From positions 19,077,521-19,141,520 of the forward strand of contig CM056389.1 of assembly GCA_029718625.1 (NCBI GenBank): a stretch of 64,000 nucleotides of DNA, given 5' to 3'. Shown here piece by piece: positions 5,532 to 64,000 of this stretch. The notes beneath the pieces were generated by a model that had not been told where the DNA came from, did no database searches, and saw only the letters and a program-made list of their open reading frames with translations. Each line of letters starts with the position of its first letter. Position 1 is the first letter of the stretch. Position numbers and translations under genes: made by a program. The DNA is from Synaphobranchus kaupii. Taxonomy: Eukaryota; Chordata; Actinopteri; Anguilliformes; Synaphobranchidae.

Positions 5532-5635
5532 GTACACTGTTCATACATTAGTTTATCCAAACACCAGACTGACTGCATCGGACCTGAATGAACTAGATAA
5601 AAATGTAGAAATGCAAAGTTTACAAGCTATTGAAT

Positions 5636-28797: not shown

Positions 28798-29936
28798 TGT
28801 GATGCTCTCATTCCCGTCCTTTTGTGTCCCGTGTTTTACCTGTTTCGTCTCGTATCGTGTTGTTTGTATTCCTGTTTGTTTCCCTCGTGCTGCAGGCTGG
28901 GCGTGGTTTTCCCTTTCGTGTCACTCTGTTCCATTGCTCTGTGTCCGCCTATCCCTTTCCTTCTCTCCGCATGCATTCTGCACACTCCCTGCTCCGTTAA
29001 TCACTCACGCATACATTCGCACGCTGCACTTAATTGATATTGACATTGTATTAATACCCTGGTCCTGTCTCGTTTGATACTTTGTATCTAGTCCTGTCTT
29101 GCCTGCTTAAAAGCTCTCGTTTGAATCTGCGTTAACTCGCTATTTTCCAGTCTTGCCCAGCTTTAATTAGCTCTCGCCAGGAATGGCGTTAACACGCTGT
29201 TCATTCTGTCCTGCCTCACTGTTAATAATAATAATAATAATAATACATTTTATTTGCGGGCGCCTTTCATGACACCCAAGGACACCTTACAGGGCATAAA
29301 ACAAAACAGTCAAGTTAAAAACAGTGGACTTAAAACAAACAGCAAAGTTAAAACAAAACAAACAACAAGAAGTATACTGGAGTGATACAGAGGGTGCAGT
29401 TAGAGTGAGTATGCTAGTTTGAACAGGTGGGTTTTGAGTTGGGTTTTGAATGTTGTTATGGAGTCAGACTGACGGATGTGTGTTGGCAGGGAGTTCCAAA
29501 GCCTGGGAGCCGAGCAGCTGAAAGCTCGAGCACCCATGGTGCTGAGGCGTGAGCTGGGGATGCTTAGGAGTCCAACAGAGGAGGAGCGGAGGGTACGGGA
29601 AGGGGTGTACTCCTGGAGGAGGTCAGTGATGTAGATGGGGGCTAGATTGTGGAGAGCTTTGAAGGTGAGCAGAAGATTTTTGTACTGAATCCGGTAGTGC
29701 ACAGGAAGCCAGTGTAGTTGAATGAGCACGGGGGTGATGTGATCGGATGAGTTGGTGCGGGTGATAATCCGAGCAGCAGAGTTCTGAATTATTTGGAGTC
29801 TGTTGACTCCAAATAATTGTTAGCCTACTAACTCCTGTTTGCTTCCCTGGCCTCTCCCGCTGATCCCCTGCTGATCCATATCTGGTTTTGTCTTGTCTGT
29901 CTCTCTCCCTATGCTTCAGGAGTTTTTGTCGGGGCA
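28798..29936 (+). mobile_element. LTR-like insert in the LINE, itself carrying a LINE fragment
   Basis: The text from TGTGATGCTCTCATTCCCG has the CT-rich style of fish gypsy LTRs and breaks the LINE frame. It is interrupted at 29223-29817 by a minus-strand LINE 3' end. Matching target duplications could not be confirmed, so the exact limits are uncertain. Confidence 0.5.
29223..29817 (-). pseudogene. 5'-truncated LINE 3' end, minus strand
   Basis: The frame 29729-29400 reads LHWLPVHYRIQYKNLLLTFKA, then GARAFSCSAPRLWNSLP and FKTQLKTHLFKLAY, the typical C-terminal region of fish L2-like LINEs. The tail GCGCCCGCAAATAAAATG ends in (TTA)n. TGTTA occurs at both outer edges (29220s and 29818), consistent with a target duplication. 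Confidence 0.85.
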
Positions 29937-31355
29937 ATAAATTATTGGAACTATTGGGAATTCCAAGGATTTGGAAAGCAGCTCATGTTCTTCCGCTCTA
30001 TAAGGGTGGTGATCCGTATGATCCAAATAACTATCGTCCTATTTCCAAGCTCTCCTGTTTAGCCAAAATTTTAGAATCATTAGTCAATGCTCAACTATGT
30101 GACTTCCTGAGCAAAAATCATGTTTTAAGTGAGTACCAATCAGGTTTCAGAGCTGGTCATAGCACGGTCACGGCTGCCTCTCTAGTGCTAAATGATATAA
30201 TTTCAGCTCTTGACGATAAACTCCACTGTGCAGCCATTTTTATCGATCTTTCTAAGGCCTTTGATACAGTGGACCACTCCCTACTACTTGACAGACTTGC
30301 CACCATTGGGCTAAGTCAGAATGCCTGTAATTGGTTCAAAGACTACTTAGCAGACAGAACCCAATGTATTCACATAGATGGGGTTAAATCCCAATTCTTA
30401 GAGGTCACTAAAGGAGTCCCCCAAGGATCGATCCTGGGGCCTGTCCTCTTTACAATTTATATCAATAGCATTGGCTCCGCTCTCCGAAGTAGCAAAATAC
30501 ACATGTATGCAGATGACACAGCCATATACTCATGTGCTTCGTCAATGGGCAAAGCCATATCAGACCTTCAGGCCGACTTCAATGCTATTCAAAACTCACT
30601 TACAAGTCTGGAATTAGTATTAAATGAAAGCAAGACAAAGTTTATGTTTTTTTCAAACAGTCGTGAGCCTCTTTCTACTAACCTTGGCATCTGCTCTCTT
30701 AGTGGCTCAAAAATTGAGCGTGTGCCTGCTTATAAATACCTTGGTATATGGATAGATGAAAATCTATCATTCAAAACTCATGTTGACTTCCTGATAAAAA
30801 AAACTCAGACCCAAAATTGGATTTTTATATAGGAATAAATCATGTTTGTCTTACGAGAGAAGGAAGCAGATAGTTCAGGCCACATTGCTACCAGTTCTTG
30901 ATTATGGTGATACTTTATTCATGCATGCTTCTGCCAGTGCTTTAAAACCTCTTGATTCTATTTATCACAGTGCCCTCCGTTTTATCACAGGTGATAAATT
31001 CCACACACATCACTGTATTCTTTATCAAAGAGTGGGTTGGTCATCCCTCACTACAAGGAGAGAGCAGCACTCCCTTCTGTTTATCTATAAAGCTATCCTA
31101 CAGAAGCTACCTCCTTATCTTACATCATTACTTACCTTTAAAACTTCCAATTATCCCATCAGATCACAAAATTGCATAGTTTTAAATACACCTCAGGTAA
31201 CCACTGAATTTGGTAAAACATCTTTTAGATACTTTGCCCCTTGGTCCTGGAACAGGCATCAAGACATCCTTAAACTTGAATTTCTCATTCCTATGGGTAT
31301 CTTTAAGTCCCTAATCTTGGACCTAGGCATATTTGTTGATGTATGTAATTGTTAA
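29937..31355 (+). pseudogene. LINE reverse transcriptase with one frameshift
   Basis: The first part (open from 29888 to 30832) has IWKAAHVLPLYKGG, NNYRPIS, SGFRAGHST, FIDLSKAFDTVDH, GVPQGSILGP and the catalytic MYADDTAIY. The second part (30846-31355) continues as VLDYGDTLF and YHSALRFITG in another frame. The shift maps to an A8 run near 30797, so a single-base slip probably caused it. The region between endonuclease start and RT is gone, so the copy is inactive. RT would copy the element's RNA at a nicked target. Confidence 0.92.
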
Positions 31356-38727: not shown

Positions 38728-41240
38728 ACAGTGGGCTCCAGAATTACTGCCACCCCTGACTGAAAATGGCATAAAAATGCTATTAAAAATAATAATAATA
38801 ATAGTGAAAAACCAACATGTGAGAAATACTGCACTTTATTACATTACATTCATTTAGCAGACGCTTTTATCGAAAGCGACGTACAGTAAGTGCATACAGA
38901 GACATCATCAAGATCACTACAGAACAGACAAGACAAAGCACATCCTTCCCATAATGTAGCAGCTATCCCTAGTAATGAACGTTGACTGTAGTTCACAGTA
39001 AGCTGTGGGTAAATCAGCAATACTACACTTCTATTCTAAATACTATTATAAACTATAATAAACAGACAGGAAAACACAGCGAACTAGTAAACACAGGGAA
39101 CTGATATTCCTAGGTCAGGATATCAGTCAAGGTGGAGTCTGAAGAGGTGTGTCTTCAGGCCTCGACGGAATGCAGGCAGGGTTGGAGTAGAGCGTAGGGG
39201 AATGGGAAGTTCATTCCACCACTGAGGAGCTAAGGTGGAAAAACTCCGCAGTCGGGACGAGTGAGAGCCTTTGACACGGAGGGGGGGAAGTGCCAGTCGC
39301 CCTGCTGTAGAAGAGCGAAGTGGTCGAGCAGGAACATAGTTCTGGATTAAGTCCTGCAGGTAGGCGGGGCCTGTCCTATTGGCTGCAGTGTAGGCCAGGG
39401 TCAGAACTTTGAACCTGATCCTGGCTGCAACAGTGACCTCAGCAGGGGGGTTACATGGGAAAATTTCGGGAGGTTGAACACAAGCCGGGCAGCTGCATTC
39501 TGGATCAGTTGAAGAGGCAGAATGGTGCAGGCTGGTAGGCTTGCGAGCAGGGAGTTGCAGTAGTCCAGGCGTGAGGTGACCATGGTCTGGACAAGAAGCT
39601 GGGTGGAGTAGGTGGTCAGGTACGGTCAAATCCTCTTGATGTTGTACAGGAGGAACCTGCAGGACCGAGCCGTCGCCCTGATGTGCTCTTTGAAGTCCAG
39701 CCGGTCGTCCAGGACCACCCCCAGGTTCCTTGCAGAGCGGGAGGCAGCCACCACGGTCCCGTCAACGGTGATGGAGAGGTCATGTAGTGGGGAGGTCTTG
39801 TATGGCATGAAGAGGAGCTCTGTCTTGTCAAGGTTGAGCTTCAGGTGATGGGTAGCCATCCACTCAGAGATGTCAGTCAGACAAGCAGATATCCTCTCCT
39901 TAACCTGTGGGGTAGAGGGAGGGAAAGAGAGGAAGAGTTGAGTATCATCAGCATAGCTATGGTATGAGAAGCCATGTGAATGAATTACTGAGCCAAGAGA
40001 CTTAGTATACATAGAGAACAGCAGAGGACCCAGTACAGATCCCTGCGGGACACCTGTAGACAGGGGATGGGGAGCAGAGACGGAACCCTTCCAGGAGACT
40101 TGGTAGGATCTATCAGTGAGATACGATACAAACCAAGAGAGGGCAGTTCCAGAAATGCCCATCTCAGCGAGTGTGGAGATCAGGAGTTTGTGGTTGACTG
40201 TGTCGAATGCCGCAGACAGGTCAAGGAGAATCAGAACAGAGGAGAGAGAGGAGGCTCTAGCAGTGGCGAGTGCCTCCGTCACAGCCAGGAGAGCAGTTTC
40301 AGTGGAATGGCCGGTTCTGAAGCCGGACTGATGCGGGTCAAGCAGGTTGTTCTGGTGGAGAAAAACAGACAGTTGGTTAAGGACAGCACGTTCAATTGTT
40401 TTGGACAGGAAGGGCAAGAGAGATACAGGACGGTAGTTCCTGACATCAGTGGAATCCAAGCTAGGTTTTTTAAGGAGTGGGGTTACACGGACAATGTTTA
40501 TTAATGTTTCAATGGAACCAACCAAAATCAATTATGAATTTAATTCAAAATAAATTTCCTACAAATCAAAGTTTCACGATTAATGGCACCCCTAATGATT
40601 ATTGTAATTAAAATATAGCAAATTTAAAACAGGCATGAAATTCCACTTATTTAAGTTTCGCAAGTCTTAAGGAACTATTGTGTCATTACATCACTTCCTG
40701 TTTCACTAGGATATACAAATGAGGTAATTGCATGCGTGTGATATCCCTTTGTCACAGAGCACCATGAAGAAAACAAAAGAACTGGCAGTTCAGAAGTGAC
40801 AAATGGTCATAGACCTTAAATAAATCTGGTAATGGCTACAAGAAGATCCGCAAAAGACTGAAAATACCACGGAGCACTGTCAGGGAAATTATTCAAAAAT
40901 TCAAAAAATATGGAAGAGTTGTAAACCTGATAGAGAACGCAAGAGCATTTTTGCCCCCATGATAGGCAGGAGGATGGTGAGAGAAGCAAGAGAATACCCA
41001 CAAATCACTGAGAGAGAATATTTCAGGCCTCTTGGGGTCACCAGGTTTCAAACAGCACCATCAGACGGCACCGCCACAACCACAGGCTCTTTGGAAGGGT
41101 TGCGAGATTAAAGCATTTTCTGACCCCAAGACACAGAAGCAAGTGCTTGAAGTTTGCCATTCTTCATTTAAATTATGACTGGACGAAGGTGCTGTGGTCA
41201 GAAGAGACCAATATTGAATATTGTCGCATATTTATTACAG
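38728..41240 (+). mobile_element. Tc1-like transposon interrupted by an L2 LINE
   Basis: The left end TACAGTGGGCTCCAGAATTA at 38728 is a Tc1 terminus. It is split by the L2 insertion and resumes near 40505. From 40765 to 41220 a decayed transposase amino-terminal half is visible: the HTH region around KKTKELAV, SGNGYKKIRKRL and HNHRLFGRVARLKH, with frameshifts. The DDE catalytic half is absent, so the element is 3'-truncated as well. Confidence 0.8.
38835..40502 (-). pseudogene. L2 LINE reverse transcriptase, 5'-truncated, inserted in Tc1
   Basis: On the minus strand: RVTPLLKKPSLDSTDVRNYRP, SGFRTGHSTETALL, LLDLSAAFDTVNH, GVPQGSVLGPLLF and the catalytic YHSYADDTQLF, then NLGVVLDDRL. The frame stops at a TGA after NIKRI (about 39626), continues in other frames as TSRLDYCNSLLASLP and RIRFKVLTLAYTAANRTGPAY to HLFRLHLD (39123). 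The missing HWLP stretch marks a small deletion. The 3' UTR ends in the CGTCTGCTAAATGAATG tail at 38840. The truncated 5' end is typical of LINE insertion. Confidence 0.93.
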
Positions 41241-42760: not shown

Positions 42761-42901
42761 ACAGCTTGAACCATGGGGAACTCAGTCACAGTGAAGAATG
42801 AAACCCCATACACTTGGCACTACTCAAATGAGGTCACCCTTGATTTGCTAAGGGCTCTGCTAATTCCCTTTCCCTTCTTTGATCTGTTCCGTCCTGCTTC
42901 A
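42761..42901 (+). CDS. exon 1 of coding part: start and possible myristoylation signal
   Basis: The acceptor TTTCTATGTTCTACAG precedes 12 untranslated bases and an ATG in good context (GAACCATGG), so at least one non-coding exon probably lies upstream. It encodes MGNSVTVKNETPYTWHYSNE and a hydrophobic stretch LLRALLIPFPFFDLF, ending at a GTAAGT donor in phase 0. Gly2 with Thr6 fits the N-myristoylation pattern. Confidence 0.75.
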
Positions 42902-45900
42902 GTAAGTTTCCATGTGATTCACTTACTCATTTTAATAAGTGCAAAAAATACTAAAAATATATTAAAATACAGATATACATTACATTACGATTTCTTTCCC
43001 CTCAGGAATGCGGCACTCTGGCCGCCTGGCAATCTGCAACATATAAAGAGCGCCGATCCAGTATATCACTCCTGAATCTGAAATATGGAGATCAGAGAGA
43101 AATTTCTCTTTCATATCACTATGGCTTCAGCGAAGACACTACATTCACCATAAAAGAAAGCCTGGATCGATCTCTTATTGAGCTGCATTGTAACAAATTC
43201 AGCATAGTTAAGACTTGCCCCAACTACGGTAAGATACTGTCTTTTTAAAAATATTTTTTAAAGATAGTGTCAATTTACTATAATCAGTGCAAAAACTGCA
43301 TATCCAAAGGAAAGGGGAACTAACATCTTACATATAGGAAGCATCCGCTGTAGACAAGGAATTTCAGAGTGAAGTAGGGAGTTATGGATATAGAGTAGGG
43401 GGTCACTGGATACAGAATAGGGGTCACTCCACATCAGGTGCGTCCGCAAAAAAATATGAGGTGCCTAAGGCGCGCCATGCTGAAAAAGAGCGGGAAAACG
43501 CATCAAACACAGAATGAAACAGGTGTGCAGGGGAGAGGGAAGGGGATGAGGTCAAAGGTCAAGGGAGTTTTTCTTTTAACTAAAGTACACATATTTAGGA
43601 AAAGTCATGAAGTGGGGTTATAAATTTTTTGGGTGCATAGTTATTGGAATATTGGACTCCATATGGGTCAGATAACCCACCCTGGCCATTCATGGGTTAA
43701 TGACAAAGTTGTTTTGGGAAAGCAGTGATATTAGGAGCTGCTAGTTTGCTATGCTAAGTACAGTGACAGTCGCCTCGTGATGGTATAAACAGACTCCTCT
43801 AGCACATCTGTCAGTAGTCTTCACAAAATCAAGACAACAGGCTCCAAGTTTCCAAAGTTACAAAACACTTTTGATCTGATGGCCCAATAACTCTGGTTGC
43901 ATATAGGGGAGCATTCACTACCCAATGGGAGGCGGTCCTATATGCAAAAAAAATGTTTATACACGTTTAGAAAATGCATGTAATGTGTTGAAATATATGC
44001 AAGCAAAATATGTCAATACTACAAAACTGCCCACTTTGATGTATTTCTTATTGACTGTAATGTACCAAACCAAAACCATTCATTACTGAGCCTGTCTGCC
44101 TCTGTGTTTTCAGCCAAATTTACATACATTTACGTATATATGCTCATGCCAAATATGCCTGTAAGATGTATGTTTACTTACATTGGGAAGCTATTTATTC
44201 CTTGATATTTTCTTCACAAATGTTTTTCTTATAATGTTAAATGTATGTCCTGTGTGAAAGAATATAATGTGTATTTTTTTGTGTATGGGGTGGCTATCAA
44301 GTGTAAGACACTGGCTACCTTTACATGCAGCCATATAGTCATGTTAATTTGACTATATGAAGCGTTCTCTGGTGGTGGTTGAGGTGAGTTTCCCCCTCAT
44401 CATTGTAAAGCGCTTTGAATGTGAGAAAGGCGGTATATAAATGCCAGGCATTATCATTATTAATATTACTCCCATTCGCTCAGGAGCAGAGCAGGGTGGG
44501 GGGCGGGGGGGTGCTGGGGCTCCATATTTTTGTACTTTTTAACTGCCATTCCCTTTCTCAAAAGCAAAAATTGAGGAAGACCGCGTTCGGCAGCAGCAGC
44601 TCCAACATGAACAAGAGGAACAACAACGTCAGGAGGCACTGAGAAGAGAATTAGAGAAACAACAACGTCAGGAGGCACTGAAAAGACAATTAGAGGAACA
44701 ACAACGTCAGGAGGCACTGAAAAGACAATTAGAGGAACAACAACGTCAGGAGGCACTGAGAAGACAATTAGAGGAACAACAACGTCAGGAGGCACTGAAA
44801 AGACAATTAGAGGAACAACAACGTCAGGAGGCACTGAAAAGACAATTAGAGGAACAACAACGTCAGGAGGCACTGAAAAGACAATTAGAGGAACAACAAC
44901 GTCAGGAGGCACTGAAAAGACAAATAGAGGAACAACAACGTCAGGAGGCACTGAAAAGACAATTAGAGGAACGCCAACGAAATGAAGAGTTGCGCCGACA
45001 AGAGGAACTGCGGCGTTTGATCAGACTGGAGCAGGAGAAGAAGATTGAGGAAGAAATCAACAGAGAAAATGAGATCGCAAGAAGGAAACTGTCAGAAATG
45101 CGATCAAAGATTAATCTGAGTCCAAGTCTAGAGGAGCAAGAGAGGCATCATCAGCAAAGCCATGTGCTGCAGCAAGTGGAAGAGCCTTCAGCTGCTATAG
45201 AGTGGGATGAGGTATGTATGCTCAAGCAGTGGAAGAGCATGCAGCTGCTATAGAGTGGGATGAGGTATGTATGCTCAAGCAGTGGAAGACCATGCAGCTG
45301 CTATAGAGTGGGATGAGATATGTATGCTCAAGCAGTGGAAGACCATGCAGCTGCTATAGAGTGGGATGAGGTATGTATGCTCAAGCAGTGGAAGACCATG
45401 CAGCTGCTATAGAGTGGGATGAGGTATGTATGCTCAAGCAGTGGAAGACCATGCAGCTGCTATAGAGCGGGATGAGGTATGTATGCTCAAGCAGTGGAAG
45501 ACCATGCAGCTGCTATAGAGTGGGATGAGGTATGTATGCTCAAGCAGTGGAAGACCATGCAGCTGCTATAGAGTGGGATGAGGTATGTATGCTCAAGCAG
45601 TGGAAGACCATTCAGCTGCTATAGAGTGGGATGAGGTATGTATGCTCAAGCAGTGGAAGACCATTCAGCTGCTATAGAGTGGGATGAGGTATGTATGCTC
45701 AAGCAGTGGAAGACCATGCAGCTGCTATAGAGTGGGAAGAGGTATGTATGCTATCTTCTGACATATGCAGCTAAAAAAATAATCTAATCTCTTAAATATG
45801 ATAGGCTTAAATATACTTTCAATACCATAGAATATTCTCTTGCAATCCTTGGTAGGTTCCATTAAGTTAGGCTTGAAAGTACTCTTCATATTAGTCAGTT

Positions 45901-48900
45901 TAGCTGCTGATAGTCCATGTAAATAACAAGCAAAAGACCCAGCAGAAGCCATAGATATATTTGTCTCATGTGACCAATTGCTTCATGGGATAATTTCACA
46001 TGTAAAATTTTAGTTTGTATTTTTACAGTTCAAAGTTGTCACATTGCGGATAAAATATATAACCCCAATTCCAAAAAAGGTGGGACAGTATGTAAAATGC
46101 ACATAAAAATAGAAAGCAGCGATTTGTAAATTATCTTTTACATATATTTAATTGAAAACAGTACAAACAAAGATATTTAATGTTCTACCTTATCAACTTT
46201 ATTTATTTTTGTTAATATACACTAATTCCGAATTTGGTGCCTGCAATACATTCCAAAAAGGTTGGGACAGGGGCAAAAAAAAGAGAAAAAAGTCTGGTAA
46301 GTTAAAAAGAAAAAACACCTTTTGGAACATTCCACAGGTAAACAGGTGATTCTATAATGACTGCTAATAAAATGATATCAAAAGACTCTTGATATCTTAT
46401 TTTCAGTGTGATAAATTTAGCCTACACTCAGTTTAAAATAATTTATATGCTTTTTTAAAAGAATAAGTCATATAATGTTAAAAATATAAGCAGACTCAGA
46501 GCCTTCTAGAGTTGCAACAATGAGGGAACGCTCTACCCTTTCATTTAAAAAGCTTCTTGTTCATTTCATAATGACCAAAAATGCAAAATGCTGAAAACAA
46601 AATATTTAGGCTAGTTGAATGAAATTAAAAATACTTTATTGGCAAGATCTGTTTGAATAGAAATAATGCAAAAGTAAACAATGATGATATCTTTCAATTA
46701 ACATTAGTGATGAACCCAGCATCTGAAATATACTACAGGGCCCCTAAACTATTTCTTGTGAGATTCAAATTTATACGCTTTCTATTTCACATGTAATATT
46801 CATTCACAGCACTAATCATTCACAGCATTAACCATTCACAGCACTAATCATTCACAGCACTAATCATTCACAGCACCAACCATTCACAGCACTAACCATT
46901 CACAGCGCTAACCATTCACAGCACTAATCATTCACAGCACTAATCATTCACAGCACTAATATGGGAGTGAGACTCTGCAACCCTCCCACTCTCCTTCAGC
47001 TACAGTATCTCTCAAAGACCTGAAAAATAAACTAACATGTTTTATCTCTTCTAAATGTACTTCCTGGAAATACTCCAGTTTCAAATAATGGCTGATTTTG
47101 GGGACTCATAATAATTACTTGAGGGAAAATTCATTTTTCATTCAAATAAAATTGATTCATTTTTTCAGGGTGACATACATAGTGCTGAAATGCATTATTC
47201 AAAATACTTATCCTGTTGCACAACAAGAGGAATATCAATTTTATTTGCAATTTAAGATGACAATTAACAATTTTAACCTGTAAAGATCTGTCATAACCTC
47301 CTGCCTACAGATTCATTTCAAGCACAGGTCTGGGTTGGCATTTTACTAATTCACTATATTTTATTTCTCTAATTCTAGCGGAGTGAAATAGACCAGAGGT
47401 TCAACGACCTGCTGTTGGAAAACCAGATCACTGAGAAAGATCTGCAAAATGCAACATTAGAAGACAGAATGACAAACCTTCAGACGAAACTGACATTTCA
47501 ATTCTGTCAAGAAGAAGACCTTTCCATTTGGCCTGTGTTTAACCTGGAGGCTGCCCTGCAGTGCACAGAACTGTCACTAACTGAGAGGTTTAGCTTACTC
47601 AAGGCAGTGACACAACTAACACTAGTAGACCACCGAGAAGCAAAGAGTGGGAATGTGCACCAACTCAACTGGGATAAAAAATACAGTTTTTTCCCATTTT
47701 TAATTGAGAAGCTTAGCGGTGTTAATAACACTCTGGCCAGTAAAGTTGTGTTGACATTTCTTGACATTTTTCCAGATGTATCACAGATCAGCAAAAATCA
47801 CCTCGGTCAAATCCTGTTCAGTGGAATCTGGACGACTGTGGAGATGATGCTCTTTCTCAGAGGGGTTAGTAGCATGGACCAGAAGACCACAGAGTCAGTC
47901 CTTCATAAAGTGCAGACCTACAGACTTGGACTCCTCCTCACTCTCTCTGCCCTAAGGGATAAAGATCCATGTGAGACCCTTCAAGGGATTGTAGAGGGAG
48001 AGATTGACAAGGACATAGATTCCATTTTGAGCGAAATGCAAGATGCAAATTACCCAGACAAGTTTGTCTCAGTGATTGAGGAGGTGTTAAGACAAGTAGC
48101 AGAGGATCTTAGTGAATACCCAAAGGCACACCCAAAGAATCTCATGGCTACAAAGAAAGAAACACTTATTAAAGATGTGGAAAAGAATATAAAGTTGTTG
48201 TTGAATTTCACCAGGATAGACATTCCTGTCCTCAAGAATCTCCTTATTGGTATTTCCATGGCTGTTAAAGAATGTTCAACTACTGAGACTCAGGGAGGAG
48301 AGAAAATTGAAGGATATTTACCCAGAATCAGCCAGCTGGCTTCTTTACTAATGCTTCTCCTATCACAGTCAACTGAAGGTAAAGGATGCCTCCTTGAAAT
48401 TGGTACTGGGGAAGGGAAATCATGCATCCTAGCTATGTTTGCAGTGATCCAAGCTATCAGAGGAGCCAAAGTTGATATTGTGACAAGTTCTCCGGTGCTT
48501 GCGAGACGTGACCAAGCGGAATGGAGAAAACTCTTTGAAAAGTTTGGCATCACATCCTCTGTTGTGCCACCACCACTGAAAAAGGAGAGTGCTTCTGAAA
48601 GTCACGAAAAAAGAGTGCAGGACGCTTACCTTAATCAAATTGTGTATGGAACAGTTAGTGACTTTGCAGCAGACGCATTGAGACAGGAATTTGAAAGAAA
48701 AGTCACTCGTGGGGAGAGGGAATTTGACTTGGTGATAATAGATGAGGTAGATTACATGACCTTGGACAGTGGCGTTCAGGTGACATTTCTTTCTCATGAG
48801 GCCAGTGGCATGAGGCATGTTGAGCAACTCCTTGCCAGCATTTGGTCCATGCTGTCCCCTTGTCGACCCATTGAAATGGAGGAAACTGGAGAGCCGGAAT

Positions 48901-51900
48901 GGATAACTGGAATACAGTTTTTCCACAAGGCTGCAAAAATGGCTGTGATGGGTTCAGAAACATCAGAACACTTCTCAGAATTTGACATTTTGCTCCCGGG
49001 GATACAGTTAGGATTTTACACACAGGATGACATTGATCACTTGATGCAGAATGTGACCGAGGTACAAAAGGAGGATAAAGAAAATGCTTTTCAAGATGAA
49101 AATTGGAAAGCCATTGAAACATTCATGACAAACATTGGAGTGGAAGAGCAGCATGATCTATTGTGTATTTTTGAGGCTGCTTGGGAACAAGCCGTTTCTA
49201 TTCATTGTTATAGAGCTACACACAATAAAGCAGCACTATTGAATGACAAGAAAATGGACAGAGACATGAACATCAAAATGCTCCTTTTGGAGAATGGTCA
49301 GGCAAGTGAAATAATGTCTGAAAAATCACTCATCGAAGCATCTGTTCAACAGTTAAAGTCTAAAATCAAATATTCTGATGAGTGCAAGCCAAACCCAGAA
49401 GACACTGAACGTTATATTGTTGTCCCCTCGTTCCTTAAGCAGTACTTGGAGAATCGATTGCCAGTGTTTGTGGGTAATGCCTTGAAGGCCATTGCAATGA
49501 CACAGGGCAGAGAGTACATTATTGATGTGTCATTATCTGCTGCTATGCAAAGCACTGAGAGTGAGTCTGACAGGCATCTCTACCATGCCATTATCCCAGT
49601 GGACTACCAGGCCAGTGGAGTTCTGGAGAAGGGCAAACGCTGGGGTGATGGCCTACAGCAGTTTCTGGAGATGAAGCACCAGTTAGCAATATCATCTCTC
49701 TCCAGTGTGACAAATTACATGTCAAATATGCAGCTCTTCAAAAGATACCTTAATGGAAGTGGAATCTTTGGTGTATCTGGAACATTGGGTGGGGATCCAG
49801 ACAAAGATTTCTTGAAAAGGCATTACAAAACAGACAGTTATGTGATACCAGCTCATCGCCGTAACAAGGTGGTTGAACTCCCTACCCAGCAGATTAGTGG
49901 TGCTTACTCTGATTGGCTAGAGGCAGTCTGCAAAACTACGCAGGCAGCTGCTAACAGGGGGCAAGTTGTCTTGGTGGTCTGTGAAGATGTGAACACAGCA
50001 AATGAGCTTCAGAAGGAAGTGAAATCTCTGTGTCGACCAATCACCATGTACACAATCAGTGAAAGGGATAATATTGAAGAAACTACATTTGCTAAGGGAA
50101 ACATCATTATTGCCACTAACTTGGGAGGACGTGGCACAGACATAAAGGTGGATAACGAGGTGAATCAGTGTGGCGGACTCTTTGTCCTCCTCTCATATTT
50201 TCCCGGAAACCGCCGAGTGGAGAAACAAGTGTTTGGACGTACAGCTAGGAAAGGAAACCCTGGTATGGTCCAGATGATACTCCACCTTGACCATCTGGCA
50301 CCAGCGTACCAAGGACAACCGGTGGAGGTCACGAGGCAGCTAAGAGAAGACTATGAAATCCATCGCATCTCTGATATGGAATCTAATGAGTTGCTGGAAA
50401 TTGAAATAAAGGAAAAATTGTTCTCCACATTTTGCAAATTTCTTAAGGAATTTGACACAAAGTATACAGAGCAAGAGAGAGATAACATGTTAAGCATGAA
50501 AGCAAAAAATGTGGAAGATACTATCAGACATCAAGGTAATAAACTTGATTACAAGCCAGCACTCAATGCTCTCAAAGAATCCTGGGCCTTTTGGTTGACA
50601 CTTCATGAGCATAATATTGAACAGCACAAGAATTTCTCAGACTTGGAAGCTGACTTGTTAGGACAGTTGACGAGAACTTGCAACATGATTTCACAGGGTC
50701 AAAGCCATAATTTCTATGATTATCTCAAACAAGCTGTGGTCAGAACTAACCTGCATTGTCGTACTAAAACAAAGTGTGACTATGGAGCAAAAGACTGCTG
50801 GCAGAAAGTTGTAGAATGCGATCCATTCTACAGAGCTGTGCCACTCTACAACCAAGCCTATATCACGATAAACCTTGCAAAGAAAGGCTATAAAGCAGAG
50901 GCTATTGAATTACTGAAGCAGTCAAAGGGGTCTCTGGATGTGTACATTTCAGAGACATCAAATACTGCAGTTGCTGGTCAGATGGCAATGAGAGGAAACT
51001 TTAAGCCACATTATGATGGTACTTGCCATTTTCAGAACCAGATGCAATCTCGGATGGACATTTTCAAAGCATGGGGAGAGTGCATAGACAATGCTCTGAA
51101 GAAACTTCAAGAACTAGAGAAAAGTAACTCTGATGCCATCACTGAGGAATCCTCAGTTTATTCGCTCTCAGATGAGAAGGACTTTGTCACCACCAATGAG
51201 CTCATGGCCATGTATGAGGTTGGCCTTGGAATTGTGTTTGAGATAAAACAAAAACCAAAATTTAATGTGGATGCTTTGATTTGTTTTCTACTTGGTGTGG
51301 CCCAGGTTCTAGCTGGTGTTCTTATTTGTGCATTCTCGTTTGGCTCTGCCTCTCAGTTTGGTCTTGCATTGATCGCTGAGGGTGTGTCTGACATGATCAT
51401 TGGCATTGTGGGTATGAAAACTGGTGTTTTTAGTTGGGCGTCCTGGGCCATCGCCAAAGCCATCAGCATTGGAATATCATTGGTCAGTGCTGGATTTGGA
51501 AAGGCCTCAAAAGGCTTACTAAATGGAACAAATACCCTGGCCTCTGTTGCTAAAAGGTTCATCCAATCAATGTCCATCAAAGGTGCTGCCATGGCAGCAT
51601 TCTCTTCAGTGTCTAGAAACACAGTGAGGATGGGAACAGATGTTGTGGTCAAACAGACTTTAAAACATGCTGTGAAATATGCTGGGCAGGAAATTATTAA
51701 GCAGACAGCAATGGATGGATTGGGCTACATAATTGATGCAGGAGTTCATCATGCACTGAAGGAGCTTATAGATTCAACTTTAAGCAAATCCTTCAAAGAT
51801 GAAATAAAAGGAAATGGTGACTTGAATGACGCACTTACAGACCTTATATGCTCTGGTGTTCCAAAGTCGGCTCTGCTGAAAGAACATACGGACTTCAAGA

Positions 51901-54900
51901 TTGACAAATCTTGTAAGAGAGATATTAAAGGAGTGGTGAAATCAATGGAAGAAGGTGTTATTCCTCATCTCATGACAGACTGCACCACTATACCTGAGGT
52001 TATTGGCAGGCTCTCTGAGGTGAGTACAAAAGCCTCAGAGCTCATGGACAAAGCAAGAGTACCTGGCAAAGTCCAAGCAGCCATCAGTGCAAGTTGTGTT
52101 GTACTAAAATACAGCACAGTGTTAATGCAAATCTTGGAATCTATCCCAACAAAGGAAGTTATCAATGACAAATTTGTCCCCAAGTTCAAACAAGAGTTTG
52201 ATAAGCAGCTGGTTGAGAGCTATGACCATGATGGAAGACATAATCTCCCTGATGTGAAACGCTTGAAGGATGAACTTTTGGAATCAATCTCAAAAACTGT
52301 GTACCAGGCATTCAGTGAGGCATGTGCCACAAATACAACAATGTTTATGAAACAGATTTTTCGGAAGAAGATTAGTAAGGCAACAGAGGCCATTGGGAAA
52401 GCCTCAAGCAATATATTTGGCAGAAACAAAACCCAAGAGTTTTTCCAGGAGCAGCAGCAGAGATATAATATGAAATCCAAAGCAAAGATTGCAACAGGGA
52501 ATTTGTTTGAAGCCGAAAAACAAGATCTTCACAATTATATAAGTAAGATGTCTGACACTAAACGGCAAGCTTCTGAACTGGACCTCTATGTCCTCACTAA
52601 GAGTGACCTCCTTCAGGGCAAAGGTATTAAGGTAAAAATGTTCAATAAAGATGGCCAACCAATCTATGAGAATACCTACCCTGGCAGTGACCACTCGGCA
52701 GGATGCATCACTCTCAAACTGACCAGACAGCCAGAGAATGCCGAAAAGTATGTACTTCTGAGCTCCTAATTTTCTATTGTCACACTTTATTAACCTGAAG
52801 TTAACATTAACATTCTGAAGTTAATTGCTATTTTAGCTGAACTTTTAATAACAGCTTGATCAAGTGTTCAAAATTCCAAAAATGAATGTTTTGTATTTTT
52901 GATTTGCTCTTTTAGTAAGAGGAGCCTTTTCACAATACTTAAAGACAAAGTCCAAGGCGTGCAAAGACCCCATGTTGGCCATTACACCATTATCCACCCA
53001 GATGGCTCTGAGAGTCCAGTGATATCAGATGGTCAGAACTGCCTGTACCATGCTGTAGTCCAGGCAACAAGTACTGGTCAAGAACAAGACATTCAACATA
53101 GAGCAGCTGTTCTGCGCAGTGAAGTACAAAGAGAGGTAAGCCATTGTTTTCTTTGCCTGCGATAATAAAAGCACTGTAAAACCTACCTAGAATGTCGAAA
53201 GACTAAAACAAAAAAACTACAGTGCCCTCCAAAGTATGCTAAAGGGAGAGTGACATTAGTCTTTTGCTGTACACTTAAGACATTTAGATTTGCGATCAAA
53301 AGATTAATATGAGACAAAAGAACAAACAATAAGCTTTTATTTCATGATATTTACATGCATATGTTTCATATGAAACACCATTTTACAGAAACAGATGTTG
53401 TGATGTGTTGAGTACCCCCATTTTCAGCTGTGCAAAATTCAGTTAACAGATGACTGACAGGTGTTACCTGTTGCTCAGGTGTTTCCTTTGGCTTGGATTG
53501 TTCACATATAAAAGAGCAGTGAGTGTCTAGACTTCTCATCTGTGGAGACTGCATTTGGAGTCAGAAGACTCACACTAATTCAACTAGCTCTATTCCAAAG
53601 CAATGCTACCCAGTATTTCCTAAATTGTTTAATGTAACTTGGCCCTGTGTTTTTTCATCGTACCAGAATGTGGTCATTCAAACTTTATGTGCTACGATAG
53701 GCAATATTGTTAGTTGTTACTTGGCCTCATTTTGATATCAATACTTTAACTGGCAGGCCTAGTTTTTGCTGGTAATTACTTACTTGAAATTAAATTATTA
53801 TTCATTACTTACTGTTATGTAGGCTATTTGTGAGTAACTTAGCATTTTTTTATGTTGAAAAGGTTTTTTTGTTCAGATATTATATACTCTAAGGGTGGGC
53901 CACTGAGAATAATCCAAAGCGTACCAACTCATCTGTGAAATACAGAGGAGGTAGTGTTACGGCTTGGGCATGTAACTCATCTGTGAAATACAGAGGAGGT
54001 AGTGTTACGGCTTGGGCATGTAATTCATCTGTGAAATACAGAGGAGGTAGTGTTACGGCTTGGGCATGTAACTCATCTGTGAAATACAGAGGAGGTAGTG
54101 TTACGGCTTGGGCATGTAACTCATCTGTGAAATACAGAGGAGGTAGTGTTACGGCTTGGGCATGTAACTCATCTGTGAAATACAGAGGAGGTAGTGTTAT
54201 GGCTTGGGCATGCAACTAATCTGTGAAATACAGAGGAGGTAGTGTTACGGCTTGGGCATGTAACTCATCTGTGAAATACAGAGGAGGTAGTGTTACGGCT
54301 TGGGCATGTAACTCATCTGTGAAATACAGAGGAGGTAGTGTTACGGCTTGGGCATGTAACTCATCTGTGAAATACAGAGGAGGTAGTGTTACGGCTTGGG
54401 CATGTAACTCATCTGTGAAATACAGAGGAGGTAGTGTTACGGCTTGGGCATGTAACTCATCTGTGAAATACAGAGGAGGTAGTGTTATGGCTTGGGCATG
54501 TAACTAATCTGTGAAATACAGAGGAGGTAGTGTTACGGCTTGGGCATGTAACTCATCTGTGAAATACAGAGGAGGTAGTGTTACGGCTTGGGCATGTAAC
54601 TCATCTGTGAAATACAGAGGAGGTAGTGTTACGGCTTGGGCATGTAACTCATCTGTGAAATACAGAGGAGGTAGTGTTACGGCTTGGGCATGTAACTCAT
54701 CTGTGAAATAGAGAGGAGGTAGTGTTACGGCTTGGGCATGTATGGCTGCTTCTCAAACAGGCTCATTCATCTTTATTGATGATGTTACGGAGGATGGCAG
54801 CAGGATGAATTTGGAAGCGTACAGATCTACAAAGCGCTTCATCCTGCAGCAAGACAATGAACCCAAACACAGTGCTGACACAACCAAAGCATTCCATCCC

Positions 54901-57054
54901 ATCCATACAGTATCTAACCCGCTTATTCCTGGTTAGAGGGTCACGAGGGGCTGGAGCCTATCCCAGCATGCATTTGGCAAGATCCAGGAATACACACTGG
55001 ACAGGTAGCCAATCCATCTCAGGGCACACAAACACCATTCACTCACACTCATACCTATGGGCAATTTAGAGTCAATTAGCCTAACCTGCATGTCTTTGGA
55101 CTGTGGGAGGAAACCCACGTGGACACAGGGAGAACATGCAAACTCCACACAGAAAGGCCCTCGGCCAGGATTCAAACTCAGTAATTTCAGGCTGTGAGGT
55201 AACAGTGCTAGCCACTGAACCACCATGCCACCCACCTAAGCATTCATCAATGAGAAAAAGTGGAAAGTTTTTGGACTGGCCAAGTCAGTCCCCTGATGGA
55301 AATCCAATCGATGATCTACTGAAAGCAGCTGAACTGAAGGCCAGGAAAAGCATCTTCAAAGAAGATACCAAACATTTGGTGATGTCATTGGGTCATAGAC
55401 CTGATGCATGCAAGTACTGCATTCATGGGCTATGCAACCAAGTATTAGACTTGCTTTTAAGTTAATCTGTTATTTTAAATTTTCCATAGCTGAAAATGGG
55501 GCACCAACACAAAAACAACAATTTCTGTAACATAATAAAAACATACGCATGTACATAAACATAAAGGTAGATTGTATCATGTTCATCTTCTGATCTCAAA
55601 TCTAATTCCAAAGTATAACAAAATCCCAGAGAATCGTAAACAAAACAGCAGGAAAATTAAATTAAATTAAAAAAAATAAAAAAGGAAAGAGCAGACCTGT
55701 ATGTTTAAACGGGAGTATACACATTGTGATGCTCCCATGGGTGCAGTGCCTCTTACGCAGAATGGCTCTTCAACATCAAAAAATCTGTGTGTTTTCCAGG
55801 ACTTAAAATCTCAAAAATAAAAATCTCTTTCCACTAGGGGGTGCTATTTCTGCATTCTCCACTGTGATTCAGGGCTGGCGGATGGCCAGTTTATCACATG
55901 GAGAACAGACAGAAACAACAAAAAAAGATAATTGGCTTCCCACCTTTTAATTGGGCTATATATTGAAAGTGAACAAAATTTTTAAAACAACAAAAAAGGC
56001 CAATCTGGCATCCAAACTCCAGAAACCCAAGCAGGCAAAAAAAGGTACAAAAGAAATCACAGAAAGTCACAAAAGAAAGCAGCCAAACCATGCAGCGACC
56101 TCCAGAATATTCCACAACATTCCACCTTAGGCCTGATTACCAGGCCTTTTATTAAGCCCACCAATGAGGTAATGGGCAGCAGCTGAATTCATTACAATCA
56201 ACTACACCTGCTCTATACCTGTGAGTACGGCCAGTGCTGCCCCCTGGTGGACAGCACCCCAACTCCCTTCCTGGCACCACAACATTCATATACTGTAGAA
56301 TGCTGGGGTATGGACTACAAGCCTCCATGTGACCTGTGGACTACAAGCCACCATGTGACCTGTGGACTACAAGCCACCATGTGACCTGTGGACTACAAGC
56401 CTCCATGTGACCTGTGGACTACAAGCCACCATGTGACCTGTGGGGGCTATATAGGGATAGGGGATTAGGAAAGACCAATCACAGGGGTCGCATACAGTTG
56501 CCTGGGAAAAGCACTGAAAAACAATATGGATAAATACCACAAATATACAAACAAGAATAAGTGCACAAAATTGGCAAAAAATATTGACTATACACACATT
56601 CTGTATGTACAAGTGTACATATGTGCAATGGCACTGTGAGTACAAATTAAGTCGTACAATATCTTACATTTTCACTTATTAAAACATAAAATACATTAAA
56701 ATAAAACTCATATATTTGTCAGAGATGATACCTTTGGATCTTCTCTCATTTATTTCCCCACTTTCTGTTTTCCGTAACAGGTTAGCCAGAACCTTTCAGC
56801 ATATGGTGGGTTAGCAAGACTCCAGAAGCACTATGACGAATGGCAGAAAACTCCTGGAAAATATGCTGTTATAGGAGGAACAAGACCGAAAACTCACCTC
56901 ATCAATGATGAGGAGTATAAGCATTCAATCTCACCAATGAAAAAGAAAGAGATATCTCCTGGAACAACAGAATATGACATCGCTGCGACGTACCACCTTG
57001 GATATGTTGGAACATATGAAGAGTTAAGTAGTTTTTCATCTTGGTATAGATCAG
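42761..57054 (+). CDS. SecA-like DEAD ATPase fused to coiled coil and OTU-like domain, spliced gene
   Basis: Six coding exons: 42773-42901, 43006-43228, 44565-45211, 47379-52747, 52916-53135 and 56781-57054. Every intron has GT...AG ends, and phases match at all five junctions (0, 1, 0, 2, 0), which supports one transcript. The protein of about 2,290 residues has an MGNSVT start, a novel N-domain, a coiled coil (about 118-330), a SecA-type helicase core (about 640-1310), a hydrophobic Gly-rich segment (about 1615-1700) and an OTU-like Cys box near residue 2164. SecA moves preproteins through SecY in bacteria and plastids; an animal nuclear homologue has no known SecYEG partner, so its role is unknown. 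Coiled coil and myristoylation motif suggest a cytoplasmic, possibly membrane-attached, oligomer (inference). The 3' end is missing. Remote origin by gene transfer is plausible but unproven. Confidence 0.85.
43006..43228 (+). CDS. exon 2: novel N-terminal domain
   Basis: The acceptor TTTCTTTCCCCTCAG and donor CTACG/GTAAGA bound an open frame of 74 codons plus one base. It reads CGTLAAWQSATYKERRSS, then ISLSYHYGFSEDTTFTIKES and LIELHCNKFSIVKTCPNY. Alternating hydrophobics suggest a small beta-rich fold. I recognise no family. Confidence 0.75.
44362..44465 (+). mobile_element. LINE/SINE 3' tail in intron 2
   Basis: Reads GGTGGTGGTTGAGGTGAGTT, then AAAGGCGGTATATAAATGCC and ends near ATTATCATTATT. 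Same family as 35668-35780. Confidence 0.8.
44565..45211 (+). CDS. exon 3: coiled coil of 13-residue repeats
   Basis: After the acceptor CCCTTTCTCAAAAG the frame gives KIEEDRVRQQQLQHEQ, nine copies of a 13-residue repeat (QRQEALKRQLEEQ), then ELRRLIRLEQEKKIEEEI and SAAIEWDE at the donor GATGAG/GTATGT. Highly charged, rich in Glu, Gln and Arg, without prolines in the repeat: a long helical coiled coil. The repeats are 39-bp DNA repeats, so length may vary between individuals. The donor is the first of an 11-unit series; only it keeps the frame, because a TAG follows at 45251. Confidence 0.85.
44613..44970 (+). repeat. 39-bp coding minisatellite, nine copies
   Basis: The unit CAACAACGTCAGGAGGCACT plus GAAAAGACAATTAGAGGAA is repeated nine times with very few differences (AGAAGA for AAAAGA, CAAATA for CAATTA). 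39 is a multiple of three, so copy-number change keeps the frame. Confidence 0.96.
45186..45750 (+). repeat. 53-bp minisatellite duplicating an exon end and splice donor
   Basis: Eleven GATGAG/GTATGT-type junctions are spaced exactly 53 bases apart from 45212 to 45742; the third (45318) has AT instead of GT. Each unit holds the last ~25 coding bases of exon 3 (CAGCTGCTATAGAGTGGGA) and the first intron bases. 53 is not a multiple of three. Confidence 0.95.
46061..46275 (+). mobile_element. MITE with CCAATTCCAAAAAAGG ends (copy 2), in intron 3
   Basis: Matches 9578-9793 in reverse complement across its length. Beyond it lies TGATATCAAAAGACTCTTGA (46374 on), the reverse complement of a word near 2500. 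Confidence 0.75.
46797..46960 (+). repeat. 16-bp minisatellite in intron 3
   Basis: About ten copies of CATTCACAGCACTAAT or ...TAAC. Confidence 0.93.
47379..52747 (+). CDS. exon 4: SecA-like helicase core and hydrophobic segment
   Basis: A 5.37-kb uninterrupted exon starts RSEIDQRFNDLLLEN after acceptor TTTCTCTAATTCTAG. SecA motifs in order: Walker A GTGEGKS (Lys at 48417), VTSSPVLARRDQAEW, IVYGTVSDFAADALRQEF, Walker B DLVIIDEVDY (48726-48755), GKRWGDGLQQFLEMKH, GIFGVSGTLGG, NIIIATNLGGRGTDIK, and RRVEKQVFGRTARKGNPG with the arginine finger region. Bacterial SecA has the same order; the stretch between Walker B and GKRW replaces its preprotein-binding domain and is diverged. Downstream come a helical region, a Cys-containing CHFQNQ stretch, hydrophobic GVAQVLAGVLICAFSFG and LIAEGVSDMIIGIVGM (51280-51500), and a long helical tail. 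The in-frame TAA at 52767 is avoided by the GTATGT donor at 52748. Confidence 0.9.
52916..53135 (+). CDS. exon 5: OTU-like cysteine box
   Basis: Acceptor TTTGCTCTTTTAG, donor GAGAG/GTAAGC. It reads RSLFTILKDKVQGVQRPHVG, YTIIHPDGSESPVISDGQNC, LYHAVVQATSTGQEQDIQHR. DGQNCLYHAV resembles the catalytic Cys box of OTU deubiquitinases (DGxCLFRAV type) with an extra residue; the Cys codon is at 53040. Asp before it could be the OTU catalytic Asp. Whether it is an active protease cannot be told; the matching His was not identified. Confidence 0.75.
53577..53850. mobile_element. short relative of the 15.4-kb fold-back element
   Basis: AACTAGCTCTATTCCAAAGC on the left and GGCAGGCCTAGTTTTTGC on the right match parts of the two arms at 15590 and 16470, joined with most of the spacer deleted. 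Confidence 0.8.
53931..54740 (+). repeat. 48-bp minisatellite built from a transposase motif, ~17 copies
   Basis: The unit AACTCATCTGTGAAATACAG plus AGGAGGTAGTGTTACGGCTT and GGGCATGT encodes NSSVKYRGGSVTAWAC. A higher-order period of six units (288 bases) is visible: every sixth unit has GTTATGG and is followed by AACTAATCTG, at about 54200 and 54490. Confidence 0.95.
54895..55237 (-). mobile_element. tRNA-like repeat insertion with AAGCATTC duplication
   Basis: A dispersed fish repeat (AGGGGCTGGAGCCTATCCCA, CATGTCTTTGGACTGTGGGA, GAGAACATGCAAACTCCACA). On the minus strand the outer part TGGTTCAGTGGCTAGCACTG is tRNA-like. AAGCATTC flanks it at 54887-54894 and 55238-55245, so it inserted into the transposase sequence. 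Confidence 0.85.
55621..56320. other. intron 5 sequence with two CTCF-like motifs
   Basis: CCACTAGGGGGTGCTA (55831-55846) and, on the minus strand, CCACCAGGGGGCAGCAC (56235-56252) fit the core CTCF motif CCASYAGRKGGCRS, the first with one mismatch. No exon was recognised. Confidence 0.5.
56322..56442 (+). repeat. 26-bp minisatellite, about five copies
   Basis: Unit GGACTACAAGCCACCATGTG plus ACCTGT, with CC(A/T)CC variants. Confidence 0.93.
56781..57054 (+). CDS. exon 6: continuation of the OTU-like region
   Basis: Acceptor TTTCTGTTTTCCGTAACAG in phase 0. It reads VSQNLSAYGGLARLQKHYDE, KYAVIGGTRPKTHLINDEEY, TEYDIAATYHLGYVGTYEEL. A donor-like ATCAG/GTGACA lies at 57054; without it the frame runs into the 41-bp minisatellite and stops at 57149. 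No later exon with matching phase was found, so the true C-terminus is unknown. Confidence 0.7.
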
Positions 57055-57079
57055 GTGACAGAAACATGTTAGTGATGAA

Positions 57080-57988
57080 GAGTCAGTGTGCATACAGTAT
57101 ATCTATAGATGCACAGGTCATCATTAGTGTGCATACCGTATATCTATAGATGCACAGGTCATCATTAGTGTGCATACAGTATATATATAGATGCACAGGT
57201 CATCATTAGTGTGCATACCGTATATCTATAGATGCACAGGTCATCATTAGTGTGCATACCGTATATCTATAGATGCACAGGTGATCATTAGTGTGCATAC
57301 AGTATATCTATAGATGCACAGGTCATCATTAGTGTGCACACAGTATATCTATAGATGCACAGGTCATCATTAGTGTGCATACAGTATATCTATAGATGCA
57401 CAGGTCATCATTAGTGTGCATACAGTATATCTATAGATGCACAGGTCATCATTAGTGTGCATACAGTATATCTATAGATGCACAGGTCATCATTAGTGTG
57501 CATACAGTATATCTATAGATGCACAGGTCATCATTAGTGTGCATACAGTATATCTATAGATGCACAGGTCATCATTAGTGTGCATACAGTATATCTACAG
57601 ATGCACAGGTCATCATTAGTGTGCATACAGTATATCAATAGATGCACAGGTCATCATTAGTGTGCATACAGTATATCTATAGATGCACAGGTCATCATTA
57701 GTGTGCATACAGTATATCTACAGATGCACAGGTCATCATTAGTGCGCATACAGTATATCTATAGATGCACAGGTCATCATTAGTGTGCATACTGTATATC
57801 TATAGATGCACAGGTCATCATTAGTGTGCATACAGTATATCTATAGATGCACAGGTCATCATTAGTGTGCATACAGTATATCTATAGATGCACAGGTCAT
57901 CATTAGTGTGCATACAGTATATCTATAGATGCACAGGTCATCATTAGTGTGCATACAGTATATCTATAGATGCACAGGTCATCATTAC
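57080..57988 (+). repeat. 41-bp minisatellite, about 22 copies, abutting exon 6
   Basis: Unit TGTGCATACAGTATATCTAT plus AGATGCACAGGTCATCATTAG. Variants are single bases (ACAG/ACCG, CTAT/CTAC). The first unit is entered by the open frame of exon 6. Confidence 0.96.
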
Positions 57989-62224: not shown

Positions 62225-64000
62225 TGGTATGAAAACTAATCATCCAGAATGTGTCTAAATATTATTGGTATAAACAGTAATGACATAATCCGGGTAGGCA
62301 TTGCGCAGGGTGTAAGGGCAGGGAGATTGAGGGAGTGCCCCTCATCTTCCACCCAGGTATTCCTACAGGTAAATGCATAAATGCATAGGAATGATGAGGC
62401 CTAAAAACAATATATGACCATTCTATTTTATTATACACAATGTATTGTATATGTGTATATAGGTATATGATATATATATATATCACTACAGACCGCTGTA
62501 TGGCCAGAGTAAAGGCCCTGTTTTGACTTGATGCATGATATTCTGTGCCGGGCATCGCCTTGACCAGCTTATGACACGCTTACATAAAGATGATATTCTG
62601 TATAGGGGGGTTTGAGCCAGTTCATAAAACAAGTCTAATGTTCAAATGTCTCAAAACCAGAACCAGCGCACACACCTATATACTTTGCAGCACGCTGTTC
62701 AAAACTATCCACGGGACTGACTATTTACATCCCACACTCCCTCACCGGAAATCAGTCCTCTTCCGTTCATGTTACCTCAGCCTACTGTCCCCCCTGCTAG
62801 CGACATTCTTAGAACCGAGGGTTCCAGCCCTGTCAATACATTGAAAAATAGAAAAAAGAGAAATAAACAAAACTGGAAGACCCCCAAAACAGTGAGTCAT
62901 CTAAAAAATGCTAAAGGACTAAAAATACGTCATCTTAATGTCTGTAGCTTAGTATCTAAACTTGATCAAATCAAAATGCTGCTGACACAAAGTAGCATAG
63001 ATATTTTTGCTGTCTCGGAAACTTGGCTTACACCAACAATTCCGGACTCCTTTCTTTATATTGAGAATTACATTATTATATTGAGAATTTATTTTGTAAA
63101 GACCGGGTTGGGAAACGTGTAGGAGGAGTAGCAATATATCTAACAGACACGGCATCCTAAACGTTACAAATCACTTTTTATTTAACGTCTCAGCATGCTA
63201 CAGATATTTTAGTTTCATATAAACCTCCTAACACGTCACCAATAGATTATGTATCATCTCTAACAACTATTCTTGAGTCGGTAAAAACTAAAGAATACAT
63301 ACTACTTGGTGATTTCAACTTAAATTGGAATGATACTATTGCTACACCGCTCAAACCTGTAGCAACCAAATTCGGAGCCAACGCGAGTGTGTAGTACGTG
63401 TGAAACAATTCTTGACCTGATTTTTTCCAATGAACCGACAAAATATAACATAAATGGGGTTATTAAAACAACAATATCGGACCATTTTCTTACCTTTGCT
63501 ATTAGAAAAAAAATTATAGAACACAAGGGACACAAATTGAATGTTATAAAAATGATACCAGGCTCCAAAAAACAGACGTACCAAAACGAGATTAATAACA
63601 TTAACTGGGAAGAGGAGAATAAGATGAACAACCCAGAGCAAATACTCTGAAAATGCATGAAAAAATTAAGAAATACACAAAAAAGTAACTAAAAAATACA
63701 CAAAAAAGTTCTAAACTAAAGTCTCGACAATTATCTTTACCTTGGATTACACCAAATATATTACGTCTGCTCAAACAAAAATCTAAAATTATGAAAAACT
63801 ACTACCGTACTAAATTATGAACAGATAAACAAGCTTTTGCGACTATTAGAAATAAATGTACCGTCGAGTTACAGAAAGCAAAAACTAATTATTATCAGAA
63901 ACTCATGAATGAAGCCTCTTTGCACCCCAAAAAGCTGTGGGATGCACTGAACACCATAACTGGAGGAAGGACAAAAAAGAACCAAGGCAAGATAAGCATA
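62225..64000 (+). mobile_element. LINE 5' part running off the window
   Basis: The 5' region (62225-62625) matches 22930-23400. An endonuclease frame follows, then the linker to an RT expected beyond 64000. Confidence 0.85.
62769..63990 (+). pseudogene. LINE APE-type endonuclease, frameshifted
   Basis: GLKIRHLNVCSLVSKLDQIK and IDIFAVSETWLTPTIPDSF carry the conserved N and E; in another frame GGVAIYLTDT, SYKPPNTSPIDYVSSL and EYILLGDFNLNWND carry the D-x-N pair; then TCETILDLIFSNEP and TTISDHFLTF the SDH motif. A duplication (ENYIII...) and frameshifts near 63085 and 63390 break the frame. The linker QLSLPWITPNILRLLKQKSK and ASLHPKKLWDALNTITGG leads toward the RT. The enzyme would nick target DNA for insertion. 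Confidence 0.88.

Follow-up and report, generated by a model that had tools for sequence, protein, structure and literature searches.

If a SecA-type motor works in an animal cell, what would its clamp thread where there is no SecYEG? SecA is the textbook export motor of bacteria and plastids, and for animals we know of no SecYEG partner. The question is raised by a 64,000-nucleotide stretch of the genome of the anguilliform fish Synaphobranchus kaupii (GenBank assembly GCA_029718625.1, contig CM056389.1, positions 19,077,521 to 19,141,520 of the forward strand; hereafter the window), in which a preliminary description, made from the letters alone, had proposed a spliced gene joining a SecA-type ATPase core to an OTU-like cysteine box. 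Judged by sequence comparison, this gene belongs to a multigene animal family, and several of its domains are akin to those of large, effector-type SecA-like proteins from bacteria that live inside cells.

The six proposed exons, with GT-AG borders and compatible phases at all of them, join into an uninterrupted frame of 2,287 codons and one further base, and since each exon is also matched by eel proteins (main matches at 53-84% identity) the splice model is more than border motifs alone. The end of the gene had been put at 57,054; however, the eel relatives are about 200 residues longer and homologous 3′ exons are present at and after 19,145,640 on the same contig (C14), beyond the 64 kb, so the gene runs on past the window. 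An earlier GT at 57023 is a possible alternative donor for exon 6. All the SecA motifs reported earlier, and DGQNCLYHAV, were found, the former in exon 4 and the latter in exon 5. The motif set is far beyond chance because it lies in a single frame, open for 1,796 codons from stop to stop, that matches SecA_DEAD (3.5e-26) and P-loop_SecA (1.5e-11), which bears out the SecA type as opposed to an ordinary helicase. Walker A, Walker B and motif VI of the SecA DEAD motor are all present in exon 4, and structure prediction, proposed at the outset as a check, yields a predicted core fold spanning SecA 34-775 at about 22% identity. In the suggested profile search SecA_PP_bind (PF01043) gave no match to exon 4 at E<=1, and eel and paddlefish relatives (P0004, P0059) score 103-152 bits against the cut-offs of 725-1493 of the curated NCBIfam SecA and SecA2 models. 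From canonical SecA (PF07517/PF21090) the fish core thus differs in its low identity and separate clade, and the gene differs in having an N-terminal domain and a coiled coil ahead of the core and, in the window copy, some 850 residues behind the aligned part.

As judged with profiles built from fish sequences only, and run against 769 frames of loci L001-L110, homology with bacterial SecA-like proteins extends beyond the core into the domains downstream. The profile of the Gly-rich hydrophobic domain finds a match in 15 of 29 bacterial or viral SecA-like loci at E<=1e-3 (best 3.4e-22; L085/L086 and L002/L016 among the 15 are near-copies), and, even at E<=1, in none of the 73 loci that score as ordinary SecA does, these loci not having been checked singly. 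At the same threshold the helical middle segment is matched in seven of the 29 (best 8.1e-11), and TPR matches below the Pfam cut-off occur in one Amoebophilaceae relative. With the C-terminal profile one protein was matched, the Megaera giant (3.1e-7), in an OTU-like part that keeps a GHY and a Cys. Shuffled frames, five per frame, gave best E values of 0.84 (hydrophobic), 0.08 (middle) and 1.2 (C-terminal). The profile of the region behind the hydrophobic domain had one bacterial match (9.2e-4), at the region's very start, and that of the N-terminal part of exon 4 had no bacterial match under 0.09.

The best plasmid matches, in coding sequences of 1,589-2,966 codons, are from Ca. Megaera polyxenophila (37.5%, 2e-46; adjoining a 15.7-kb SecA-like coding sequence), Ca. 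Bandiella woodruffii (34.3%) and Legionella geestiana (31.3%), with ordinary SecA appearing only at 3e-17 or weaker. Among genomes the best are from a Legionellaceae metagenome-assembled genome (MAG), Rickettsia endosymbionts, Arcanobacter, Parachlamydiales, a Cytophagales MAG, Cardinium and Amoebophilaceae, with frames of 1,023-5,238 codons and one fragment of 495, several ending at contig ends. A mixed-alignment profile picked out at least 518 relatives among 591 genome stretches, of which the best 80 were kept, and 19 of 70 in viral contigs; with two short patterns drawn from fish alone, neither genomes nor viral contigs yielded a match. Matches in 22 phage records are mostly at 26-30% identity, with short pieces to 45%, and those annotated are SecA. 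With the proteins of intracellular bacteria (Ca. Megaera and Bandiella plasmids, Rickettsia, Parachlamydiales, Amoebophilaceae) the fish gene has in common a core clade and, in many, the helical middle and the hydrophobic domain; the Megaera protein in addition has an OTU-like segment in the same order as in fish. Unlike these kin the fish gene is spliced and has an N-terminal domain starting MG and a coiled coil, whereas the bacterial proteins vary in their added domains (ankyrin, UCH, WHH nuclease, LysM). For 11 bacterial or viral SecA-like proteins or parts, Pfam gave a toxin- or ubiquitin-type domain above cut-off in four and none in seven. This kind of protein is foreshadowed in bacteria, as PMC3482391 lists SecA-like helicase-related domains among Amoebophilus effectors beside Otu-family peptidases, and in PMC8195603 the SecA-like domains of giant toxins are predicted to serve in secretion.

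A quick tree of 82 chosen rows comprised 25 of the 29 SecA-like loci (L009, L019, L023 and L087 were left out), 21 of the 73 ordinary SecA loci and 36 rows labelled animal, unnamed ena rows included. In it ordinary SecA splits off at 100 and the animal rows form one clade (99, marked with an asterisk) among SecA-like bacteria, with two long bacterial rows, L017 and L018, joining them at 87. A careful tree of 42 rows (16 SecA-like, eight ordinary, 18 animal), from which nine mostly long-branched SecA-like rows including L017 and L018 were dropped, supports the animals at 99/100 and animals plus SecA-like bacteria at 100/100. With plastid SecA outside both trees, placement within canonical SecA is rejected, and there is high confidence in the joint statement that the gene is a spliced nuclear fish gene of the predicted exon structure and that its core is SecA-type, in a SecA-like clade apart from canonical SecA. 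Direction and donor are left undecided by the trees, since the bacterial rows form one side in only 23% of bootstrap trees. To our knowledge SecA is otherwise only bacterial and plastid, and for that reason transfer from bacteria to animals is favoured. An ancient transferred or domesticated SecA core had been proposed; its SecA character stands, and the separate clade and the homology past the core make capture of a multidomain, effector-like protein a likely event.

The OTU-like box needs more qualification. Its Cys is present, as is a candidate catalytic His, but in an order that had escaped notice, H-aromatic-x ahead of C, and the piece appears to be circularly permuted, His...Cys. Both residues occur in 23 of the 29 relatives that have an OTU-like region, the third triad residue in those 23 being D/E in 17, T/S in five and G in one. 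Assignment to OTU by Pfam is weak, relatives scoring 14.3, 14.2, 15.7 and 17.3 bits against a gathering score of 23.3, and OTU is listed at E<=1 neither for relative P0002 nor for an exon 4 read-through, which is without exon 5. The region has no sequence match in the PDB; Foldseek with the C-terminal model gave no match at E<=0.001 in the PDB or viral libraries, and the OTU and TseN fold matches of this model come only from VIA re-examination of Foldseek's own list. EschOTU (PDB 6w9s), a permuted OTU deubiquitinase and, according to PMC7396840 (2020), the only one in which permuted order was observed, has the same His...Cys order; it differs in that the third residue of the fish relatives varies and the fish box is known from sequence and model. 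Sister copies have an open exon for a terminal DNase-like domain, and the candidate (TseN-like) exon of the window copy is broken. To TseN-TsiN (PDB 9j9w; PMC12574953) the fish domain has no sequence match, and the matched chain is unnamed. An HNH/WHH nuclease identity for the fish C-terminus was rejected, the fish profile having matched no bacterial WHH region.

Relatives in fish are numerous: 491 proteins at E<=0.001 among 7,964 scored, and of the 120 listed 107 are named, all, on reading, ray-finned fish, with 13 unnamed. The closest among the matches listed are freshwater-eel and conger proteins (85-87% identity in the core), and the family ranges from paddlefish and gar to spiny-rayed fish. 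A core search limited to proteins of about 385-1,225 residues (261 matches, 120 listed) brought in a second fish class at about 31-36% identity, together with the hemichordate Ptychodera, the newt Pleurodeles, the caecilian Microcaecilia and unnamed ena proteins. SecA-like annotations in fish, mentioned in the preliminary description, do exist: several relatives carry the UniProt/NCBI label 'Protein translocase subunit SecA(-like)'; these are of the same family, and the labels come without a described function. Within the literature searched an animal SecA-like family appears undescribed: by title and opening of the abstract no animal SecA was found, with subscription papers mostly uncovered and absence not proved, and PMC4687049 deals with a bacterial gene in fish, but a kinase, not SecA. 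A SecA-like fragment (P0137) on a 3.4-kb contig of a Ca. Thiodiazotropha MAG groups with unnamed rows beside fish and may be host DNA.

As to what the motor might do, the proposal of a membrane-tethered, ATP-driven threading motor combined with ubiquitin handling, directed against intracellular microbes, is the best explanation, though a tentative one. The N-terminal Gly and/or the hydrophobic domain would be the membrane tether, the clamp would grip unfolded polypeptide and thread it with ATP, and the OTU-like domain would strip ubiquitin from the substrate, or sense it there. Such a pairing of unfoldase and deubiquitinase would act on proteins of or around intracellular microbes, with the terminal DNase-like domain, where intact, as a second effector activity. 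The ubiquitin-linked defence role already surmised remains an inference. Gly2 and Thr6 of exon 1 may make an N-myristoylation site; 47 of the 68 listed relatives of at least 2,200 residues start with MG, 34 of them with MGxxx(S/T), and N-terminal hydrophobicity in the 47 is not strong (highest 15-residue mean 1.09). The window copy itself, however, has a hydrophobic stretch at residues 21-39 (mean hydropathy 1.53). For the N-terminal 119 residues of eel no Pfam family passed the cut-off and nothing in the PDB matched significantly, and PADLOC had no family for the three relatives scanned. A bolder version, in which aquatic vertebrates adopted a whole endosymbiont-type effector and put its SecA motor to work in cell-autonomous defence, as an unfoldase or translocator driven by ATP and coupled to ubiquitin, beside an EschOTU-like permuted OTU, is rather unlikely. 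If true, it would be the first non-plastid SecA motor working in an animal cell. The multidomain order that the fish gene has in common with an intracellular bacterium's giant protein would be a rare case of vertebrates capturing an entire effector, and the permuted OTU order would gain a candidate animal relative.

The copies within the genome (counts are lower bounds; assembly of 1.503 Gb in 94 contigs) bear on a different possibility, that the captured protein is a duplicating relic under relaxed constraint with little function. Class A has at least six copies at 18.9-19.4 Mb of C14: four match through exon 4 without a stop, one has a TGA, and one is matched over 348 residues only. Exon 4 is intact over 1,780-1,812 codons in three, the fourth being inside a longer joined frame. 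Over the whole exon, in six pairs from four copies, dN/dS is 0.66-1.16 at dS 0.025-0.038, as a relic would have it, and the interrupted copies, together with the broken downstream exon, point the same way. Pooled by codon columns, dN/dS is 0.23-1.13 over 0-1400, 3.5 over 1400-1600 and 1.93 over 1600-1800 (the last 12 columns are too few for a reading); Fisher tests past column 1400 in four of the six pairs give p of 0.0045, 0.023, 0.18 and 0.38, which suggests, and does not prove, diversifying change there. Class B, at 2.0-2.9 Mb, has at least 13 genes, nine with single frames of 2,555-2,604 codons and 11 of the 13 with a second, weaker SecA_DEAD match ahead of the main one. Loss of the OTU Cys in all eight read would suit a relic, but all eight keep Walker A, and for seven of the 13 dN/dS is 0.40-0.57, apart from 0.84 for one pair of nearly identical genes, at dS values reaching 0.2. 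Given also the four class-A copies open throughout exon 4, motor columns invariant in 38 rows and the persistence of the family across ray-finned fish, a retired effector is improbable. No better placed is a defence toxin, whose payload would be active C-terminal domains; its SecA and hydrophobic parts would carry the protein, or that payload, through a membrane and into a microbe or a vacuole. Still more doubtful is a protein-quality factor of the housekeeping or germline kind with no tie to infection, in which a disaggregase of SecA type would be combined with TPR-like and ubiquitin-handling domains; the conserved motor and the TPR-like and OTU-like parts would fit, but most housekeeping genes neither expand in tandem nor change so fast. 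An ordinary eukaryotic DEAD-box helicase is scarcely credible, with SecA matches far stronger in sequence and fold, and so is bacterial contamination (or the misassembly raised earlier), given the introns, retroelement-like frames nearby, many tandem copies in a 1.5-Gb genome and named listed relatives that are all fish; both are rejected, short of an assembly that is chimeric throughout.

Features of the gene and upstream tandem-copy exons, in window coordinates
Feature	Position	Strand	Basis or remark
Exon 1	42773-42901	+	ATG at 42773; N-terminus MGNSVTVKN...; eel alignment
Exon 2, N-terminal domain	43006-43228	+	Eel proteins align at 55-60%
Exon 3, coiled coil on 39-bp (13-aa) tandem repeat	44565-45211	+	Eel match
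Exon 4 (giant, 5,369 bp), with SecA-like core and the domains after it	47379-52747	+	
SecA-like core: NBD1 (Walker A, DEVD), PPXD-like insertion, NBD2, start of scaffold helices	48141-50702	+	Predicted
GTGEGKS	48402-48422	+	Exon 4
VTSSPVLARRD	48480-48512	+	Exon 4
DEVD	48741-48752	+	Exon 4
TNLGGRGTD	50115-50141	+	Exon 4
FGRTARKGNPG	50232-50264	+	Exon 4
Helical, TPR-like middle segment	50331-51158	+	Fish profile
Gly-rich hydrophobic domain	51141-51638	+	Fish profile; hydropathy peak 2.6
Fast-changing region behind hydrophobic domain	51576-52745	+	Comparison of tandem copies
Exon 5, OTU-like segment	52916-53135	+	
GHYTIIHPDG	52977-53006	+	Exon 5
DGQNCLYHAV	53028-53057	+	Exon 5, behind GHYTIIHPDG
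Exon 6, remainder of OTU-like region	56781-57054	+	Donor at 57055
3′ exon of upstream tandem copy	5372-5533	+	57-76% identity to eel and salmon relatives (eel C-terminus)
Last exon of upstream tandem copy	9243-9458	+	61-70% identity to eels

Some observations stand apart from the argument. A class-B gene (L104/L121; L121 is C14:2082900-2091500) has a degenerate NBD1 copy without Walker A and then an intact SecA core, in one giant open frame with an OTU-like box lacking the Cys; it is the only one of the 11 whose second SecA_DEAD match was read. On a Ca. Megaera plasmid, the 15.7-kb gene (L004 400-16077, minus strand) has a SecA-like core, an OTU-like segment and a RickCE-like match below cut-off, and adjoins a second SecA-like gene. 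Two IMG/VR contigs filed as viral (L085, L086) have a SecA-like gene of about 3,555 codons whose product ends in a WHH nuclease domain, L085 with a RickCE-like match below cut-off; they are near Rickettsiales rows in the quick tree, with placement unsettled in the careful one, and are either a plasmid or phage-like element or misfiled.

The tandem repeat of exon 3 is at 44614-44979 (9.4 copies), and a 53-bp tandem repeat at 45175-45752 (10.9 copies) duplicates the end of that exon including its GT splice donor, so that many alternative donors are on offer. Long intron minisatellites are at 53926-54742, 57085-57987, 56311-56443 and 46800-46960 (units of 48, 41, 26 and 16 bp). Downstream of the window there are three tandem occurrences of the family's terminal exon (L116 282-509, 4754-4981 and 8776-9003). 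The retroelement-like frames near the gene, at 394-1752 (+), 29864-31355 (+), 39123-40531 (-) and 62721-63122 (+), resemble by eye LTR-retroelement integrase/chromodomain and LINE-type proteins.

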